Assembly (NCBI RefSeq): GCF_020023995.1 | Contig: NZ_NRRD01000002.1 | Span: 186,001 to 250,000 of the forward strand | Source: Rhodobacter sp. TJ_12 | Lineage (GTDB): Bacteria; Pseudomonadota; Alphaproteobacteria; Rhodobacterales; Rhodobacteraceae | Length of the DNA: 64,000 bases | Direction of reading: 5' to 3' | Shown here: in pieces, positions 2-64,000 of the stretch | Position numbering within the stretch: the first letter of the stretch is position 1 | Layout: the number at the start of each line of letters is the position of its first letter | The notes under the pieces: model-generated | Told to the model about the DNA's origin: nothing | Databases searched by the model: none | The model's input: only the letters and a program-made list of their open reading frames with translations | Translations under genes and position numbers: made by a program

Positions 2-526
2 ACCGATCTGGCGACTGTCTATGCGCCCGCCGAGGCGGAGGCGGGCTTGTTGCGGCTGATGGCGCAGGAATTTCCCACCGTGACCGCCGTGCCGGTGCGC
101 GAGGCGCTGAACCGGGTCAGCGAGGCTTTGGGCTCGATTGCCACGGCTGTGGGTTTGGCCGCCTCGGTCACGCTGGTGACGGGCTTTGCCGTGCTTTTGG
201 GGGCGGCGGCTTCGGGCGAAGAGGCGCGGGCGCGCGAAGCGGCTTTGCTGAAAACGCTGGGGGCCACGCGCGGGCTTATCTTGCGCTCGTTCGCCTTGCG
301 CGCGGCGCTGATGGGGGCGGCGGCGGGGCTGATTGCCGTGGGTGTTGGCGCCTTGGCCGGTTGGGCGGTGCTGGTGTTGGTGATGGAAGCCAGCTTCCGC
401 TTTGATCTGCTGGCCGCGCTTTTGGTGATTGCGGGTGGCATGGGGGCGGTGCTTTTGGCGGGGACGGTCTTTGCGCTGCGCCCGCTTGGCGCGCGCCCCG
501 CGCGGATCTTGCGGGCGCAAGACTAA
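2..526 (+). CDS. ABC transporter permease, FtsX/YbbP-like (C-terminal part)
   Basis: The reading frame is open from the window edge and stops at 524-526, so only the last 174 residues are visible. The fragment has hydrophobic segments separated by a charged loop with the stretch KTLGATRGLILRSF, typical of FtsX-fold permeases (MacB/YbbP family), and ends in the usual short cytoplasmic tail ARPARILRAQD. It would form the membrane part of an ABC exporter or lipoprotein/substrate-release system, with its ATPase presumably upstream of the window. Family assignment is from motif recognition; the substrate is unknown. Confidence 0.75.
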   Translation, partial: TDLATVYAPAEAEAGLLRLMAQEFPTVTAVPVREALNRVSEALGSIATAVGLAASVTLVTGFAVLLGAAASGEEARAREAALLKTLGATRGLILRSFALRAALMGAAAGLIAVGVGALAGWAVLVLVMEASFRFDLLAALLVIAGGMGAVLLAGTVFALRPLGARPARILRAQD

Positions 527-2522: not shown

Positions 2523-3308
2523 ATGGCGGGAACGCCGCTGGTCTATGAAACACGAATTACGAACGATGCGCGGGACATTCGTGCCTCGCAACGGCTGCGC
2601 TATCGGGTTTTCGTAGAGGAATTGGGCGGCTCCGGGCCGCTTGTCGACCATGACAACCGGCTGGAAGCCGATGAGCTTGACCCGCTTTACGATCACTTGC
2701 TGCTGATCGATCCGCACAAAGACCCTGCGGATCTGGACCGGGTCGTGGGGGCCTATCGGCTGCTGCGCTCGGACCGTGCCGCCGAGATCGGGCGGTTTTA
2801 TTGCGATGCGGAATATGACCTGACGCCCTTGCGCGCATCGGGGCGGCGGCTGTTGGAACTTGGCCGGTCCTGTGTGCACCCCGATCATCGCGGCGGGGCG
2901 GCAATGCTGATGCTGTGGAATGCGCTGGCCGATTACGTGCTGGAACACGAGATCGATATTCTGTTCGGTGTCGCTTCTTTCCATGGCACCGATATCGATG
3001 CCTTGCGCGCGCCGCTGGCTTGGCTGCATCACCACCATCTGGCCCCTGAAGCCCTGCGCCCGCGCGCGCGGGGCGATCATTTTCAGCGCATGGATCTGGT
3101 GCCCGAAGCCGCACTGGACCGGCGCGTGGCGATGGAACAGATGCCCAATCTCATCAAAGCCTATCTGCGGCTGGGCGGCTTTGTGGGCGAGGGGGCCTAT
3201 GTCGATCATCCATTCAACACCACCGATGTATTGCTGTTGATGGACACGCAGGCGATGTCGGAAAAGCACCGCGAGTTCTACACGCGGCGCGCGGAGGGGC
3301 GTGGATGA
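2523..3308 (+). CDS. olsB: L-ornithine N-alpha-acyltransferase OlsB
   Basis: A 261-residue GNAT-fold acyltransferase that should transfer a 3-hydroxyacyl group from acyl-ACP to ornithine, giving lyso-ornithine lipid. Recognisable OlsB/hemolysin-like segments are LRYRVFVEELGG near the N-terminus, DHYDHLLLID-type sequence around 55-65, ELGRSCVHPDHRGG near residue 110-125 and IDILFGVASFHGTD about 145. The stop overlaps the start of olsA (ATGA at 3305-3308), so the two are translationally coupled. Such lipids replace phospholipids under phosphate limitation in many alphaproteobacteria. Confidence 0.85.
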   Translation: MAGTPLVYETRITNDARDIRASQRLRYRVFVEELGGSGPLVDHDNRLEADELDPLYDHLLLIDPHKDPADLDRVVGAYRLLRSDRAAEIGRFYCDAEYDLTPLRASGRRLLELGRSCVHPDHRGGAAMLMLWNALADYVLEHEIDILFGVASFHGTDIDALRAPLAWLHHHHLAPEALRPRARGDHFQRMDLVPEAALDRRVAMEQMPNLIKAYLRLGGFVGEGAYVDHPFNTTDVLLLMDTQAMSEKHREFYTRRAEGRG

Positions 3309-4159
3309 CCCGGCCCAACGACCAAGCCTCGAAACCGCTGTGGATGGGGGGAGAGCCGCCCGAGGTGCCGTCCGCCGGGCTGGGCGGCGTGCTGCGGCTT
3401 GTGCTGCGTGGCACTGGCTTTGCGCTCTTGCTGAGCTTTGGGCTGGTGCTGCTTTTGGCGCTGCGGCTGCTGGAGCGCCCGTTTTATGGCGCGGCGCGGC
3501 CATGGACACCTGCGCTGACCCGGGCCGTGTGCCGGATCAGCATCGCGATCATGGGGATTGGCTATCAGGTGCGCGGCACGCCGATGCATCATATCGGCGC
3601 GGTGGTTGCGAACCATTCCTCGTGGCTTGATATTTTTGCACTCAATGCCTGCCAGCGGGTCTATTTCGTCTCCAAAGCCGAGGTGGCGCGCTGGCCGTTC
3701 GTGGGCTGGCTGGCGCAGGCCACGGGCACTGTTTTCATTCGCCGGGACCCGCGTGAGGCGAAGGCGCAGCAAGCGGTGTTCGAGGCGCGTATCCGCGCCG
3801 GGCATCATCTGTTGTTCTTCCCTGAGGGCACCTCGACCGATGGTTTGCAGGTGCTGCCGTTCAAGACCACGCTGTTTCAGGCATTTTACACCCATGGGCT
3901 TGATCGGGTGATGCAAATTCAGCCGGTCAGTGTGATCTATCACGCCCCCGAAGGCCAAGATCGGCGCTTTTACGGCTGGTGGCGCGATATGTCCTTTGGC
4001 GGCCATCTGGCCAAGGTGCTGGCCGCGCCCCGCCAGGGCTGGATCGAGGTCATGTTCCACGATCCGCTGGATGTGGCGGCCTATCCCTCGCGCAAGGAGC
4101 TTGCGGCGGCTTGCGAGGCGTCGGTGCGCGCGGGGGTCACACAAGCCCTGTCGCGGTAA
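3305..4159 (+). CDS. olsA: Lyso-ornithine lipid O-acyltransferase OlsA (PlsC family)
   Basis: A 284-residue protein with one N-terminal membrane helix (about 30-55) and the PlsC acyltransferase motifs NHSSWLD (motif I, His-x4-Asp) near residue 100 and FFPEGTSTDG (motif III) near 175. It should add the second acyl chain to lyso-ornithine lipid; some homologues also make phosphatidic acid. It is coupled to olsB. Its last 79 bp overlap, on the opposite strand, the ribbon-helix-helix gene. Confidence 0.85.
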   Translation: MTRPNDQASKPLWMGGEPPEVPSAGLGGVLRLVLRGTGFALLLSFGLVLLLALRLLERPFYGAARPWTPALTRAVCRISIAIMGIGYQVRGTPMHHIGAVVANHSSWLDIFALNACQRVYFVSKAEVARWPFVGWLAQATGTVFIRRDPREAKAQQAVFEARIRAGHHLLFFPEGTSTDGLQVLPFKTTLFQAFYTHGLDRVMQIQPVSVIYHAPEGQDRRFYGWWRDMSFGGHLAKVLAAPRQGWIEVMFHDPLDVAAYPSRKELAAACEASVRAGVTQALSR

Positions 4160-56998: not shown

Positions 56999-57888
56999 GC
57001 CCGAGGTTCCTTGAGACCGTCGACGACCATGCCCGGCAGAGACCCCAACCCCTCAGCACGGAGCAAAGTGAGGAAATTCTCATCCTTGAGCAGGGACTGG
57101 AACGCTGCGTCGAGGAACAGCAGGTTGCCGCGCGTCGACTGCGCCCTGTGGATCATGTCCCGCTGGCGTTCTGCCTCGATACGATAGGCCCGGACCAACG
57201 CCGCCGATGTCATCCGCACGCCAGATCGTTTCGCGCTCGTGGCACCTTTTTTCTTGCCGTGCCGCTGGCGCAGGTCCACCAGCCGCCTTGCTTCCAGCAG
57301 CTTCTTGCCTCGCAATTCACCCGAGGCATAGGCTGCCTCCAGCGCTTTTTGCACATCTTTCTCTCCCGCCCTCGTGATATAAAGTGCAACACTGAGGGGC
57401 ATCTGGCCGGTCTCCACCGCGATCAGGAGTCGTTCCTCGCCGCCCGCGATCAACTCGCCGATTTCGTGAACGTACGACCATGACAATCCGGTTTTCTCGG
57501 CGATGTCGTGGTCCGAGTATCCTCGGTCCCGCAGGATGGCGATATCCTGCAGCAACTCGAGCGGACGTTGCTGACGACGGGCGATATTCTCGATCACGCT
57601 ACGCAGAAGTCGTTCGACCTCGTTCGCGTCCACGACGATGGCCGGGATGTGGGTTTCGCCAAGTGCAACATAGGCCTCCATCCGCCCCTGACCGCAGACC
57701 AGCCGATAGGCATCCCCTGACGCCGTGTCATCCTGCGCGACGGTGATCGGCTTCTTCAGCCCGACCTTGCCAATACTGTCCACCAGCGCGCGAAAGGTCT
57801 TTTCAGATCGTTCGCGCGGATTTTCCACGGTGATGGCCGCAATGGGGACAATCTGAACCTCGGCGTGGGGCTCGATATTGCTCACCAT
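56995..57888 (-). CDS. ParB-like protein (2)
   Basis: A 297-residue ParB-family protein: N-terminal ParB domain (IVPIAAITVENPRERSEKTF, YRLVCGQGRMEAYVALGE), HTH near 110-150 (LRDRGYSDHDIAEKTGLSWSYVHEI) and a RepB-like C-terminus (TSAALVRAYRIEAERQRDMI). It overlaps the recombinase gene (57882-57888) and the next ParB gene (4 bp), so all three are co-translated. The GxxR of the ParB motif is here GQGRMEAY. Confidence 0.8.
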   Translation of the reverse strand: MVSNIEPHAEVQIVPIAAITVENPRERSEKTFRALVDSIGKVGLKKPITVAQDDTASGDAYRLVCGQGRMEAYVALGETHIPAIVVDANEVERLLRSVIENIARRQQRPLELLQDIAILRDRGYSDHDIAEKTGLSWSYVHEIGELIAGGEERLLIAVETGQMPLSVALYITRAGEKDVQKALEAAYASGELRGKKLLEARRLVDLRQRHGKKKGATSAKRSGVRMTSAALVRAYRIEAERQRDMIHRAQSTRGNLLFLDAAFQSLLKDENFLTLLRAEGLGSLPGMVVDGLKEPRA

Positions 57889-59480
57889 GGTGTCACCTCG
57901 GAAACGGAAACGCGCCGGGCCATGTCGAAGAAAAAGTCCAACGTTTCAAAACGGAAAGCGTCCAGCATTAGGCCATTCTCCTCTGCAAGCCCCAGAGGTT
58001 TGCTCCGCATCTCGAATTGGGGCAGCAGGTAGTAATCGAGCGCGTCAGTGTTCGTGCGGTTCATCCTGATGGCGATGGTGATGTCGGGCGCGAGGCCGGT
58101 GTCGAAGCGGATCTTCCAGCGCAAGCCGCCTGAGGAGGTTTCGCGACAGCGGGCGACGACGATGGATGCCGTGAATTCGCCGTTGATGGTCAGCAGGTCC
58201 GTCGCAGGGTTCCTGATCACGGCACCGCCAAGCCGGGTGATTTCGTGAATGACGCGCTCAATCTCGTCGCCGTGCAATTGCCGCAACACGCGGTTGGCTT
58301 CGATGTAACGATAGTCGCGATCCGGGGTGAACCCGACAAGGGAATAGGCCCTGAGCAGGCTGCCGAAGCGATGGGCATAGGCACCGCTGGACGGCATCCC
58401 ATCTGTCTCATTGATCACCAGCCCGGAAATGTAGCCATGACGCTGGAAGAGCCGGGTAAGGCGCTCCAGCATCTCCTCATCCGAGAAGCGACGATTGCGC
58501 GCCGCGATGATGGCCCGCGCCTTTTGAAACTGCTTTGGCTCGACGATGGCCTCGAAGGCGCCGTCCGAACGGATCCACATCTCCGGGCCGTTGGCGACCC
58601 GCTTTCGCTTCAGCTTGAATGAGCGCCGGTTGTAGACGTTGTTGCCGATGTATTTCTCATTGGTCAGGATTTGATGGACGGTCGCGCGGGTCCAGGCCCA
58701 CCCGAGATCGGTGAGGAGGCCGCGTTCATTCAATTCTTTCGCAATTTCGGTTTCTGACAGGCCCTTCTTCAAAAACTGGCTGTAGATCCAGCGCACCGTC
58801 CGGACCTCTTCGTCTGGTCCGGGAATCAAGACGACGCGATCAGTCTGAAGGCTTTTGTGCTCACCGCGCTTCAGTTCGGTTTTCACTTCGCCCCGCTCAT
58901 TGAGCAGGGCGCGACGCAACCCGAAGCCCGCTGGCCCGCCCTGACGATAGCCGAGCTCAATCAGACGGCATTGGCCCGCGAAGACCTTTACTGAAAGCTC
59001 GCGGCTTTATTCGCCCGCCATTGCCCGCTTGACGCTTTTGACGATGGTGGAGGTCGGAGAACCATCGTTCTCGAATTGCTCGGCGCAATAGGCGACCTGC
59101 ATTCCGGCCTTTCGGCAGCGATATTCGTAATAGGCAGATTCGTCGGTGTCCTGAAAACGTCCCCAGCGGGTGACGTCATAGACCAGAATCACGCTGAACT
59201 TTGCCTCGCCGGATTCAACATCGGCAATCATCTGCTGCAATGCCATCCTACCGCCGATGATCAGGCCGCTTTTTGCATCATCCGAATAGGTTTTGACGAT
59301 CTTGATGCCGCGGCGTTCGGCGTAGTCGCGGATCGTCTGCGCTTGGTTCTGGGTTGAGTATTGTTGATGCTCGGTCGACATCCGAACGTATTCCGCAGCC
59401 AGCAACTGCTCGGACCGCTCGGTTTCTCCTCCGGATAATGGTGCTTTTCCTCGAGCCACGCCCGCCTCCCAAGAAATCAT
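57882..59480 (-). pseudogene. Large serine recombinase interrupted by one in-frame stop
   Basis: The N-terminal part (to 59007) is a resolvase catalytic domain: LLAAEYVRMSTEHQQYSTQN with the nucleophile Ser, YSDDAKSGLIIGGRMALQQM, and VILVYDVTRWGRFQDTDESA. It stops at TAA (59007-59009), but the same frame goes on with SRELSVKVFAGQCRLIELGY into the recombinase domain and DNA-binding C-terminus to 57882. The stop replaces the Tyr expected in the family's EYSRELS, so one base change (TAY to TAA) explains it. C-terminal residues could restart only at internal codons. The start at 59480 is a best guess; the frame is open to 59681. It would have excised or integrated the island. Confidence 0.85.
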
Positions 59481-59584
59481 GTGGGCTGCTTCGAGCTGAT
59501 GGCCCTCTAGCGCAGGCCCAAGTGCAAATACGAACTGCCGCTTTTCATGTCCTTCCCAGAATATTATCGAAGGAGGACGCAGAG

Positions 59585-59887
59585 ATGCGGACCAAGACGG
59601 GCACATTTGTGCCGAAAACGGGCACAAATGTGCACCTTGAAGCGGATGTCGCTGACTATCGGACCGCCATTGCCGCGGCACTTCGGGACGAACTCGGCCT
59701 GACGCATCGAGCAGTCAAGACGGCGATGCGGTGGACGGGCGCCAGCGAGCGGACCGTGAAGTACTGGATCGCTGGCGAGCGTGGGCCCAGCGGTGAGCAT
59801 CTGATCGCACTGGCCAGGCACTCGGATGTCGTGTTCCAGATGGTGCTTCTGCTGGCCGATCGGCACGACGACGCGAATGCCGAATAA
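59585..59887 (+). CDS. Small HTH-type DNA-binding protein
   Basis: A 100-residue protein with a predicted HTH in the middle (LTHRAVKTAMRWTGASERTVKYWIAGERGPSGE split around 45-75). The ATG at 59585 has a near-perfect AAGGAGGACG ribosome binding site. Divergent from the recombinase, and proteins of this type commonly accompany this recombinase/ParB module. Its start region overlaps the non-conserved upstream part of the recombinase frame, supporting a short recombinase start. Confidence 0.7.
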   Translation: MRTKTGTFVPKTGTNVHLEADVADYRTAIAAALRDELGLTHRAVKTAMRWTGASERTVKYWIAGERGPSGEHLIALARHSDVVFQMVLLLADRHDDANAE

Positions 59888-61033: not shown

Positions 61034-62329
61034 TTGTGCATCGGCGAAGCGGTCGCGGGCTGCGACACCGTGCACCGAGTTTGGCCCGAAACCGTTGGCC
61101 CGATGCTGCGACACTATCGCGCCAGAATGGGCTTGGGGGCGGCGCGGGGCACATTGTATTGCTTGCGATCATTGCACTTAGAGGTGCCTCCACCCCTTCA
61201 CAGATCGCAGATTACATTGTTTTACGCTGCTGTTTTGCTTCTTTCCTGCGCCTATGGCATCAGTCTTCCGCTGATTGCGATCGCGCTTGACGGCATGGGC
61301 GCTTCGACGCGGCTCATCGGTCTTTCGGCGGCCATGCCCGCCTTGGGTTGGCTCCTAGGGCTTCCGGTGATCCCTTTGGCCCCTCGGCGCCTGTCCCTGA
61401 CACGATTGGCCCTCGCGCTTCTGGGGGTGGCATTCGCTGCTTGGGGCGCGATGGCGTTGCAGGCCGAGCCGTGGCTTTGGGTCGGGGCGCGGTTTCTTTT
61501 TGGCGGGGCCGTTGGTCTTATCTATCGGCTGATCGAATATTGGCTCACCCTCACGGTGCCCGAACCACGGCGCGGTCGCGAAATTGGCTTTTACAACGCG
61601 ACCTTTCTTGGCGGCATCATCCTCGGATCGGCTTTGCAGCCGTTGCTTGGCGTCGGCCTCTTGGGCTTTGGGTCGGTTGCCGTGCTGCTTGCGAGCGTTG
61701 GTGTGGCGCTTTTGCACCGTAACCTACTGACCGCGCCAAAGGTGCATCTGTCTTGGCGCCCGCAAGATTTTGGCGCGGCGCTGCGGCTTGCCCCGCTTGC
61801 CATGGCCGCAGCCCTCGCTTTCTCTATGTATGAGGACATTCCGGCTTATCTTTTGTCGCTTTTCGCGCTGCACCAAGGTATGGGCGAGGGCGTCGCGGCA
61901 CTGACGCTTTCGGTCTGCGCACTTGGCGCGCTTACGGGCGCGGTGCCGTTTGGGATGCTCTCTGACCGGATCGGCCGTCGCCCTGTGCTTTTGCTGGCTT
62001 CGGGCATCGGGCTTGGCGGCGCGGTGGCGATGCCGTTTTTGGCTGCGGTCTCGACGCCACTCTTCCTTGCGGGGCTTTTCCTGTGGGCCTTTGGCATTGA
62101 GGGGATTTTTGGCGTTTCGCTCGCCCTTTTGGCGGACCGCTTTCGCGGTGAAGATTTGTTGCGTGCCAATCTCGCCTATGGTGTGGTCTATGCGCTTGGT
62201 GCGCTGATCGGGCCCCTTTTTGCTGCGAACCTGATGCAGGCAATCGACCCGCAAGGCGTGTTCCTTGCCGCCGGGCTGATTTTTGCCGCGCTGATCGTCG
62301 TGACACTCAGCTTTGGGAGGCGGCCATGA
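61034..62329 (+). CDS. MFS transporter
   Basis: A 12-span major facilitator protein; the loop FGMLSDRIGRRPVLLLASG is the family motif A between helices 8 and 9, and RLIEYWLTLTVPEPRRGREI lies between helices 4 and 5. First membrane span at SQITLFYAAVLLLSCAYGIS. The frame opens at 61034, but the true start is probably later (ATG 61127 or a GTG/TTG near 61185), because the first about 50 residues look non-coding. ATGA overlap with the LuxR-type regulator. Substrate unknown. Confidence 0.8.
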   Translation: MCIGEAVAGCDTVHRVWPETVGPMLRHYRARMGLGAARGTLYCLRSLHLEVPPPLHRSQITLFYAAVLLLSCAYGISLPLIAIALDGMGASTRLIGLSAAMPALGWLLGLPVIPLAPRRLSLTRLALALLGVAFAAWGAMALQAEPWLWVGARFLFGGAVGLIYRLIEYWLTLTVPEPRRGREIGFYNATFLGGIILGSALQPLLGVGLLGFGSVAVLLASVGVALLHRNLLTAPKVHLSWRPQDFGAALRLAPLAMAAALAFSMYEDIPAYLLSLFALHQGMGEGVAALTLSVCALGALTGAVPFGMLSDRIGRRPVLLLASGIGLGGAVAMPFLAAVSTPLFLAGLFLWAFGIEGIFGVSLALLADRFRGEDLLRANLAYGVVYALGALIGPLFAANLMQAIDPQGVFLAAGLIFAALIVVTLSFGRRP

Positions 62330-63069
62330 AAACCCAGCCCCTGCTTGATCTGGCCGAGGCGATGGCGCAGGCCAAAGACCCGTTCGCCCCCTTTTCGAAG
62401 TTTCTTGGGGCGCGCGGCGGGCGCGGCTTCTTTTACGGCTTCGCGGCGCTATCGACCGGCCTCGCCCAGATCCGCTCTGGCGAGGGGCTGCATTTCCGCC
62501 ACAGCTACAGCCGTGAATGGGAGGATGTCGTCGGCCCGCAGGCGCTGATCGACAACGACCATTCGATCGAGGCGATGGATAATGGCGAACGCATGGTCGA
62601 ATGGATGCCAACCGACTGTGCAACCTGGCTTGAAACACTCAGCCCAAAGCAGCGACGCCAGTTCGAGATCGAGGCCGATCTGGGCATGATCTATGGCACC
62701 TCGCTTTTGCTCGATGGTCATCCGGCGGGCTTTTCCGGCATGGGGATTTGGATCGAAACGCAACGCTCCCCCGAAATGTTCCGGCGGGGCTGGAACAAAT
62801 TCGGGGCCGAGCTGACAGCGGCTTCCAACCTGCTTGATGTTGCCGTGCGCGAGGCGCGGCCGAACCTGTTGGTGCGTTTGACCCCGCGCGAGATCGATTG
62901 TCTGAGCTGGCTTGCGCATGGGCTGCGCCCCAAAGAGATTTGCTGGCGTCTTGGGATTTCGGAAAAAACCTTCGAGAAATACATCACCTCTGCCAAGGCC
63001 AAGCTGAAATCGCGCACCCGCGATCAGGCGTTGGCCAAGGCGGTGTTGCTGAAGCTGCTGCCGCTGTAG
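62326..63069 (+). CDS. LuxR-family regulator with autoinducer-binding-type domain
   Basis: A 247-residue protein: N-terminal ligand-binding domain of the Autoind_bind type (about 15-165; FYGFAALSTGLAQIRSGEGL, FRHSYSREWEDVV) and C-terminal LuxR HTH (about 180-240; LTPREIDCLSWLAHGLRPKEICWRLGIS). No luxI is present, so it is a LuxR solo. It is coupled to the MFS gene, and a C/G-run dyad lies directly after it (63083-63105). Confidence 0.85.
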   Translation: MKTQPLLDLAEAMAQAKDPFAPFSKFLGARGGRGFFYGFAALSTGLAQIRSGEGLHFRHSYSREWEDVVGPQALIDNDHSIEAMDNGERMVEWMPTDCATWLETLSPKQRRQFEIEADLGMIYGTSLLLDGHPAGFSGMGIWIETQRSPEMFRRGWNKFGAELTAASNLLDVAVREARPNLLVRLTPREIDCLSWLAHGLRPKEICWRLGISEKTFEKYITSAKAKLKSRTRDQALAKAVLLKLLPL

Positions 63070-63713
63070 CCTTTGCGCGACATGGGGATTTTTCCCCAAT
63101 TGGGCGTGCGCGTCGGCTTTGTTAGCTCTGTCTTGCTGCGCAAGGGGAGAGTGGCCCCACGCGCCATTTTTCGAGGATGTTCCTGGGTTAAGTGCGCATT
63201 GGTCTGTCCCGTCACAATTTTCGTGGCGGCCGCCTTGTCAAACGCAAGCGTGGAGTGGTGAGCCTCGCACCACTGATGGCCGCGGGCGCTGTCGGAAACG
63301 CCAATGCCGCCGTAAGCGGCGCGGGCTGCGGCGCGCCTTTGGTCCGCCGGCCACCGCGGGGGCGCGCACGGAACAGACTCACGCGGCGGGGGTGGCATTG
63401 TGCCAGTTTTGCGAAGCGCGGTGTGACTTCGCACAGCCATGCAGCAGGTAAGGCGCCGACCGCCCATTTGCTGGGCGTCTCATCCCCCGTGACGCCGTTT
63501 TACGAAAGGGTCACGCCGGTCATCCTGCCGCCGGGGGGCATGCGTTTGCACGCCTATTTTCGGAATTTAAATCAGATGGTTGTCGCCAGATTGTGCGGCG
63601 CGGTGGCGCGAGGCAACACGTGTTGCGTGACCTTTGGTAGGGAAAAGCTCCGTTGACAAGTGGGGAGGCGTTGCACAGGCTTCTACCTGTAGTTGTGTTG
63701 TGAGATTTGAAAA
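63070..63713. other. Intergenic region with regulatory elements
   Basis: About 640 bp without a gene I can support; a 154-codon frame (63192-63656) exists but has no family and poor composition. Elements seen are GGGGATTTTTCCCCAATTGGG (from 63084) just after the LuxR stop, a 14-bp palindrome GCAACACGTGTTGC (63613-63626) and a TTGACA hexamer (63653-63658), the last two before the repeat-peptide gene. Confidence 0.4.
63613..63626. promoter_or_regulatory. 14-bp palindrome upstream of the repeat-peptide gene
   Basis: GCAACACGTGTTGC is perfectly palindromic and lies 26 bp before a TTGACA hexamer and 87 bp before the ATG at 63714, a plausible operator position. Confidence 0.4.
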
Positions 63714-64000
63714 ATGAAACGCTTCAAAATTAAAGAGCTCATCGTAAAACTTCCCACCGAAGGCTTCGATAAGACAGGCGAGTTCGATGGCAAAATTTGC
63801 AAGCAAGTGACGTTGTTGGAGTGTCCGGGGGGCGCAACCCGTGTGGACCCGGGACCGATTACCGATGGCCCCGTGGACCCCTGTCAACAAGTCACCCTGC
63901 TGAACTGTGCCAATCAGGCGACGCGGATTCAATGTGAGCTGACCCAAGTCCGAGAGCCTTGCCAACAAGTGACCTTGATTGATTGCGCGAATGGCGTGAC
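63714..64000 (+). CDS. Cys-repeat peptide, candidate RiPP precursor (partial)
   Basis: The gene runs off the window; 95 residues are visible. The leader-like N-terminus reads MKRFKIKELIVKLPTEGFDK. It is followed by three copies of C-[KQ]-Q-V-T-L-[LI]-x-C, with Cys at 29/37, 56/64 and 82/90 (spacing 27 and 26), and one extra Cys at 73. Each repeat continues with a G/N-rich patch and Thr. Base composition is less GC-rich than the neighbours. The pattern of basic-hydrophobic leader plus repeated Cys/Thr core suggests a ribosomally made, modified peptide; maturation enzymes could lie downstream. A repeat-containing surface protein is the main alternative. The ribosome binding site is weak. Confidence 0.6.
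   Translation, partial: MKRFKIKELIVKLPTEGFDKTGEFDGKICKQVTLLECPGGATRVDPGPITDGPVDPCQQVTLLNCANQATRIQCELTQVREPCQQVTLIDCANGV

Follow-up and report, generated by a model that had tools for sequence, protein, structure and literature searches.

The right end of the window, the whole 64,000-nucleotide stretch of Rhodobacter sp. TJ_12 DNA analysed here, runs into what is very probably a lanthipeptide cluster of three genes in which the synthetase is split: a separate lyase (P0002) and an RRE-kinase-LanC protein (P0003) would act on the product of a Cys-repeat precursor gene, P0001 (Table 1). The evidence consists of observed gene order, domain families, catalytic and zinc-binding residues, homologue folds and precursor motifs, and of an observed agreement between precursor cysteines and cyclase zinc ligands. 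As the contig that contains the window is 320,706 bases long, P0001 is traceable past position 64000; the lyase and synthetase genes both lie beyond the window edge. The three genes have an operon-like arrangement, a 7-nt gap being followed by a 4-nt overlap of the P0003 gene with the lyase gene, given the GTG start at L002:4521. Dehydration enzymes, a LanC-type cyclase and a Ser/Thr/Cys-rich precursor, the combination by which a lanthipeptide locus is recognised, are encoded together here, with the lyase fold modelled on a homologue from locus L032.

The initial annotation had noted an ORF at 63714 that starts with KIKELIVKLP and carries three C-x7-C repeats, all of which are found where it placed them, and had guessed that the ORF encodes a RiPP precursor. 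The guess is supported by the kinase-LanC protein with an RRE-fold N-terminus and the lyase encoded directly downstream (folds modelled on homologues), and the presence of a kinase and a zinc-type LanC cyclase narrows it to a lanthipeptide. What had been named as contrary to it, anchor domains on a long repeat protein in the absence of maturation enzymes, is not what the downstream sequence shows. Among the maturation genes anticipated past the edge, a lanthipeptide synthetase and an RRE fold are found, and peptidase-type ABC transporter, radical SAM and YcaO domains are absent from the eight neighbouring proteins scanned with Pfam, which span from ~2.4 kb upstream of the precursor gene to ~4.9 kb past the synthetase gene (L002:11868). 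No exporter or leader peptidase is identified among the same eight neighbours.

Table 1. Features of the locus. Positions beyond 64000 are in continued numbering (L002 position + 60999).
Feature	Position	L002 position	Strand	Remarks
LuxR-family regulator gene	62326..63069		+	GerE domain
14-bp perfect palindrome GCAACACGTGTTGC	63613..63626		.	possible regulator site (putative role)
TTGACA hexamer	63653..63658		+	candidate promoter element
Precursor gene P0001	63714..64424 (in-window 63714..64000, codons 1-95 of 236)	2715-3425	+	ORF
P0001 layout	residues 1-28; ~29-156; ~157-236			leader-like with FKIKELIV; Cys/Thr-rich core; helical-looking C-terminal tail (borders by eye)
LanY-like phosphoSer/phosphoThr lyase gene P0002	64432-65523	3433-4524	+	363 aa; 7 nt after precursor stop
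RRE-kinase-LanC synthetase gene P0003	65520-67964	4521-6965	+	814 aa, assuming the GTG start at L002:4521

The precursor gene

P0001 extends beyond the window end to a full length of 236 aa and begins with a short leader-like segment, MKRFKIKELIVKLP. The complete ORF holds 15 Cys residues and four C-x3-T-x3-C units, at residues 29 (CKQVTLLEC), 57 (CQQVTLLNC), 83 (CQQVTLIDC) and 109 (CQQVTYPNC), three of which are inside the window. The units are copies of each other and thus not independent events, so that the shuffling statistics describe regularity and not independent selection: four such units are reached by none of 100,000 shuffles of residues 29-156, the plain C-x7-C pattern (five in the same segment) is less rare, being reached by 943 of 100,000, and S/T-x3-C occurs eight times against a shuffle mean of 2.18, with eight or more in 2 of 20,000 shuffles. 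None of the other S/T-to-C spacings (x0-x2 and x4-x8) is enriched in P0001, all lying below their shuffle means. A search of 31 genomes returned no match to P0001 except itself.

The lyase gene

P0002 itself has no significant match by sequence in Pfam, NCBIfam or the PDB, and a profile of 18 lyases found no lyase among PDB sequences, LxmY included; the lyase identity is therefore drawn from the predicted fold of a homologue and from residue spacing. Identity of P0002 to its homologues is only 19-27%. The lyase homologue of locus L032 was modelled with AlphaFold2 from a 15-row alignment (mean pLDDT 89.3), and Foldseek against the PDB places LxmY of the lexapeptide dehydratase first (6.3e-8), followed by HopA1, CuvL, SalKC, ThurKC and SpvC/OspF. 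Re-alignment gives Z scores of 15.9 for HopA1, 15.6 for LxmY and 13.9 for CuvL, the first two over approximately residues 125-382. Pfam matches to the lyases are weak, with PF17914 (HopA1) in one of 18 members (best E 0.029) and RamC_N in three of 18 (best 0.0028).

Four residues, K211, K240, R250 and Y257 in P0002 numbering, are invariant in all 18 aligned lyases. The spacing of the last three (+10, +17) is that of the CaoY catalytic residues K219, R229 and Y236, of which K219 and R229 were probed by mutation, as given in the excerpted text of PMC9486802. By order along the chain and not by superposition, we guess that K211 could be the counterpart of SpvC Lys104. A separate HopA1/LanY-fold lyase with catalytic Lys, Arg and Tyr, which is a feature of class V, is thus present at this locus, the fold being that of the L032 homologue and the residues including those of P0002.

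The kinase-LanC synthetase

Pfam identifies LANC_like (3.4e-25), APH (5.1e-12) and Pkinase (1.8e-9) domains in P0003, all above their cut-offs. Its best NCBIfam model is the class IV LanL (NF038150) with an E-value of 4.7e-33, yet the score is 114.5 bits against a cut-off of 650. The kinase residues K183, HGD, N281 and DFG are retained, as are the LanC motifs AHG, WCNG and LCCG; all zinc ligands are present, including the Cys and CCG/CHG ligands by which a zinc LanC is recognised. Pfam finds no lyase domain in P0003, whose N-terminus aligns with the RRE-fold domain described below (fold modelled on L032). In the family tree, which has weak support, P0003 forms a long branch.

RRE-fold domains

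Residues 1-121 of the L032 kinase-LanC protein are modelled, with a pLDDT of 86.1, as three strands followed by three helices. The Foldseek ranking for this domain is headed by TigE, PqqD and TbiB1, with no match at E <=0.001, and on re-alignment TigE scores Z 10.6 and TbiB1, PqqD, MccB and NisB 9.2-10.1. Class I dehydratases are among the structural matches (NisB at Z 9.2 and MibB at Z 8.3), and non-RRE proteins are not far below (GdmN at 8.4, PKMT and MINA53 at 7.7), none of these three being a RiPP enzyme to our knowledge. Pfam gives no PqqD match in the 16 members scanned and only weak others, the commonest being DUF7782 (5/16, best E 0.01), so the RRE call is one of fold. Three strands, three helices and a match to solved RREs are found on homologue L032, with whose domain the P0003 N-terminus aligns; the model supports an RRE fold for the N-terminus of the kinase-LanC protein, for which leader binding is predicted.

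A similar domain may be present on most of the lyases. The lyase N-terminus (residues 11-112 of the L032 model) matches TigE with Z 6.7, a weak score below 8 and at a level that the tool calls common; profiles of the kinase-LanC and lyase N-terminal domains align by hhalign with 88.5% probability (E 2.7e-6, 65 columns). By profile or alignment the RRE-like domain is reached in 16 of 24 lyases. The profile match starts after it in five (L040, L041, L044, L076 and L077), in two (L043 and L045) the preceding precursor gene leaves no space for it, and L042 is ambiguous. In the L076 lyase ~106 unmatched residues precede the profile match, and could represent a divergent RRE-like domain. In Cupriavidus (L028:7977-16179 on a Cupriavidus oxalaticus plasmid, and L037) the same cluster also encodes a 2OG-Fe(II) oxygenase (2.7e-12) fused to an RRE-like domain that it has in common with the N-terminus of the kinase. 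The precursor gene at L028 has a full-length gene for a LanB-type dehydratase (Lant_dehydr_N 3.5e-136) beside it.

Kinase-based lanthipeptide synthetases are described as binding their leaders without an RRE: the excerpt of PMC10604976 states that class II-V enzymes have no identifiable RRE, and that of PMC7470986 that RRE-Finder handles classes II-IV as RRE-independent. An RRE fold on the kinase-cyclase, with a similar domain on most lyases, offers a natural case of how separate phosphorylation and elimination enzymes coordinate on one substrate.

Distribution of the family

The relatives are sparsely spread over several bacterial phyla. The lyase/kinase pair occurs at 24 loci in at least six named phyla, the named hosts belonging to the Pseudomonadota, Bacillota, Actinomycetota, Acidobacteriota, Gemmatimonadota and Verrucomicrobiota; in the Bacteroidota, contig L046 has a lyase gene together with a kinase gene that is truncated where the contig stops. 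Full-length P0003 relatives came up in a tblastn search of plasmids, one in Paenibacillus peoriae and one in Cupriavidus oxalaticus, and in both cases a P0002 relative and a Cys-containing precursor are encoded nearby. A search of the genome collection with a profile of P0003 relatives gave 26 loci. P0002 has no match in plasmids and, besides the window's own genome (G000), three weak matches in 289 genomes of the class. A protein search of 61 genomes of close relatives gives matches in 26, at full length only in G000 and partially in the rest. Copy number is one in each of 12 genomes or records searched (E 1e-5).

The lyase profile matches 18 of 29 loci examined, and in 16 of these the kinase gene follows the lyase gene on the same strand; at the two Cupriavidus loci it is encoded on the opposite strand, with one gene in between. 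Used alone on other genomes, the lyase profile gave six further loci, all with an adjoining kinase-LanC gene, so that the two genes adjoin at 22 of 24 loci and are one gene apart in the two from Cupriavidus. Few first-look candidates were scored per genome, and the numbers of lyase-profile members per genome set are therefore lower bounds: 1/398 in the window's phylum, 3/345 in the class of G690, and 2/199, 1/194 and 4/150 in the phyla of G693, G694 and G695 respectively, each count including the centre genome (six new in total across the five sets). Early profiles were built with over-long ORFs, which makes their N-terminal parts unsafe, and later comparisons used the hand-trimmed alignment A3. 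Eight of the 26 genome-collection loci (L047-L054), without a lyase match, were excluded from the family, and three others without one (L033, L038 and L039), at or near contig starts, were counted only for zinc ligands.

Precursors and cyclases across the family

Precursor candidates were found at 22 loci, several of the Cys-rich ones selected by eye. Fifteen of the 22 have an N-terminal FxVKDLM-like pattern (shuffled-set mean 0.01 matching) and 15 a C-terminal tail-helix pattern (mean 0.03), an enrichment that is descriptive because both patterns were drawn from the same precursor sequences. The regular expression for the N-terminus matches nothing in the six new loci, and the upstream ORFs there were consequently read by eye. 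A second candidate at L076 was in the wrong frame and was dropped. The Paenibacillus precursor has four copies of the helix motif, interleaved with three cores, and the precursor at L075:5674-6336 (minus strand) has ten tandem CGNAGAS-like units in a strikingly regular Cys/Ser array. Tandem-core precursors such as P0001 are candidates for long multi-ring peptides.

A rival reading takes P0001 for a structural or secreted Cys-repeat protein that lies beside unrelated enzymes by chance. P0001 is long for a lanthipeptide precursor at 236 aa, with a long helical tail, and no exporter is identified among the genes scanned. However, the enzyme pair has precursor-like neighbours with shared end motifs in other phyla as well, and this gene-neighbour conservation disfavours the structural-protein reading, to which we give hardly any credence.

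Cys-rich precursors go with zinc-type cyclases and Cys-poor precursors with ligand-less ones. Of 27 aligned kinase proteins 20 have the zinc ligands, six are without them and one is cut by a contig end. A precursor candidate is present at 15 of the 20 zinc-type loci, each with 3-21 Cys (none was identified at L032, L033, L038, L039 and L077), and the precursors at the six loci without zinc ligands have 0, 0, 0, 0, 1 and 1 Cys. Zinc ligands and precursor Cys therefore agree at all 21 loci scorable for both, which is suggestive only, as it reflects about two evolutionary events on a weak tree: on the tree built from the N-terminal and kinase regions, the zinc/Cys state changes at fewest twice, 10 of 24 inner branches are weak, and a single origin of the change is compatible with it. 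Pfam finds no LANC match in the two ligand-less kinase proteins searched (L042 and L045). Precursors with 0-1 Cys, those of the L040, L041, L042, L043, L044 and L045 branch, have S/T-Pro motifs such as TPITP and TSPI.

The six loci with a kinase and a lyase and no zinc-ligand LanC make dehydration without cyclisation plausible in the family. It could be supposed for the window locus too that the enzymes only dehydrate and that the cysteines bind metal or form disulfides in place of thioether rings; given that P0003 keeps all zinc ligands (AHG, WCNG, LCCG) and that S/T-x3-C spacing is enriched in P0001, we think this very unlikely. One part of the family lacks both the cyclase ligands and the cysteines, so that dehydration and cyclisation appear separable, a natural experiment.

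Proposed pathway

For the three-gene cluster with its split synthetase we infer the reaction steps, and likewise the ring pattern, leader removal, export and function. The FKIKELIV segment of the precursor would probably be held by the N-terminal RRE of the kinase-LanC protein and perhaps also by the similar domain at the lyase start. The kinase would phosphorylate Thr, and a few Ser, in the P0001 core, and the separate lyase would eliminate phosphate to give dehydrobutyrine (and dehydroalanine). The zinc LanC domain is predicted to add Cys thiols to the dehydro residues, mostly forming methyllanthionine rings over T-x3-C, for which P0001 offers up to eight T-x3-C pairs and fifteen Cys. The conserved helical tail of the precursor may serve as a second recognition element. 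In other bacteria the related branch that has lost zinc cyclase and cysteines may make dehydrated peptides without rings.

Relationship to known lanthipeptide systems

Class V LanK/LanY systems (LxmKY, CaoKY) share with the window family a separate lyase, the K/R/Y spacing of CaoY and a kinase on another protein, and LxmY heads the Foldseek list of PDB matches for the L032 lyase; the excerpt of PMC12328550 names a putative LanC cyclase among the class V enzymes. The locus might on these grounds be a class V pathway (LanK, LanY and LanC) in which the kinase and cyclase genes have become fused. In the window family, however, the kinase is fused to a zinc LanC, so that there is no discrete APH-type LanK, and it resembles protein kinases as well as APH. 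The kinase carries an RRE fold and most lyases a similar domain, whereas according to the excerpt of PMC10604976 no RRE is identifiable in class II-V proteins; the family is not restricted to actinobacteria, whereas class V is described as actinobacteria-only in that of PMC12328550. There is no PDB sequence match to LxmY, and CaoY has Arg187 where the family may have Lys211, matched by order and not by structure. Taken together, we consider a fused class V pathway possible but unlikely.

Class IV LanL (NF038150; CuvL) has the kinase followed by a zinc LanC in the same order as P0003, is the source of its best NCBIfam model (4.7e-33), and has the same lyase fold, the L032 homologue matching CuvL with Z 13.9. 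P0003 might then be a distant LanL whose lyase domain became a separate gene, with an incidental RRE fold. Against this, the 114.5 bits of P0003 compare with a LanL cut-off of 650, and P0003 has no lyase domain in its polypeptide; in place of it stands an RRE fold that is conserved in the family and is also found fused to a 2OG oxygenase in Cupriavidus. The lyase residue spacing follows CaoY, and the zinc motif of the family is CCG, whereas type IV is listed as L-CCH in the excerpt of PMC11251773. We are doubtful of a class IV assignment.

Other classes share single features. Class III LanKC proteins have a kinase and cyclase in one chain and a related lyase fold, but P0003, unlike these, has zinc ligands (WCNG, LCCG) and its lyase is separate. 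CCG-type class II LanM enzymes, of which we take ProcM to be an example, have the same Cys-Cys-Cys zinc ligands (CCG) in LanC; dehydration in the window family would proceed by a protein kinase and a lyase and not by a LanM dehydratase domain. Class VI (streptococcal LanKCb), reportedly from He et al. 2023 as cited in reviews, is likewise a kinase-centred synthetase departing from the class III and IV domains. It is a single protein with truncated lyase and cyclase that makes miniature products, according to the excerpt of PMC10676316, whereas the lyase here is a separate gene and the cyclase keeps its zinc ligands. RRE-guided class I dehydratases (NisB, MibB) have a PqqD-like RRE in common with the family and an unrelated dehydration chemistry.

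Each part of the system is of a known kind, and a search of open-licence papers turned up no account of an RRE-kinase-LanC protein that has its lyase encoded separately. The survey in PMC11251773 lists type IIa as D-CCC and, in its excerpt, met all nine cyclase/dehydratase combinations, including a lyase-type dehydratase with a CCC cyclase; clusters with standalone kinase and lyase are mentioned in the excerpt of PMC4159009, and the word 'kinase' is absent from the main text of PMC12710340. As the parts are known and this combination of dehydratase and cyclase has already been counted, the locus is best described as a variant of known lanthipeptide systems and not as a firm new class. We give an even chance to a separate synthetase class, which would be RRE-guided and split, with a leader motif and helical tail in its precursors, a thin multi-phylum spread, and a branch without cyclase and Cys yielding dehydrated unringed peptides.

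Flanking genes and locus boundary

The LuxR solo that the initial annotation placed upstream has a LuxR-type GerE domain and no autoinducer-binding match at E 0.01, and we tie it to the cluster by position. The palindrome ahead of the precursor ORF is likewise present at 63613-63626, as a single exact copy in the genome with one other place at one mismatch, and the LuxR protein could possibly regulate the cluster through it. The TTGACA sequence stands at 63653-63658, but a promoter scan finds no two-hexamer site around it and no matching second hexamer, which leaves it a candidate promoter element.

By Pfam the flanks consist of an MFS transporter and the LuxR-type regulator upstream and of MerR, MFS and RTX-repeat genes downstream. 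The RTX-type calcium-binding repeat protein (L002:9182-10303; HemolysinCabind 6.5e-23) lies downstream of the MerR/MFS pair, and L002:11014-11868 on the minus strand has a weak exosortase-like match (E 0.0085, under the cut-off). DNA similarity to a congener (G002) stops 35 bp past luxR (L002:2105); the other flank has no match there, so that no empty site is shown. In the congener a tRNA-Ser (gct) gene (L087:9726-9814) lies a few hundred bases after luxR, beyond the point where similarity stops, and this place may be a variable site. Elsewhere in the window, two adjoining ORFs on the minus strand (57882-59681) resemble what we take to be the halves of a serine recombinase.
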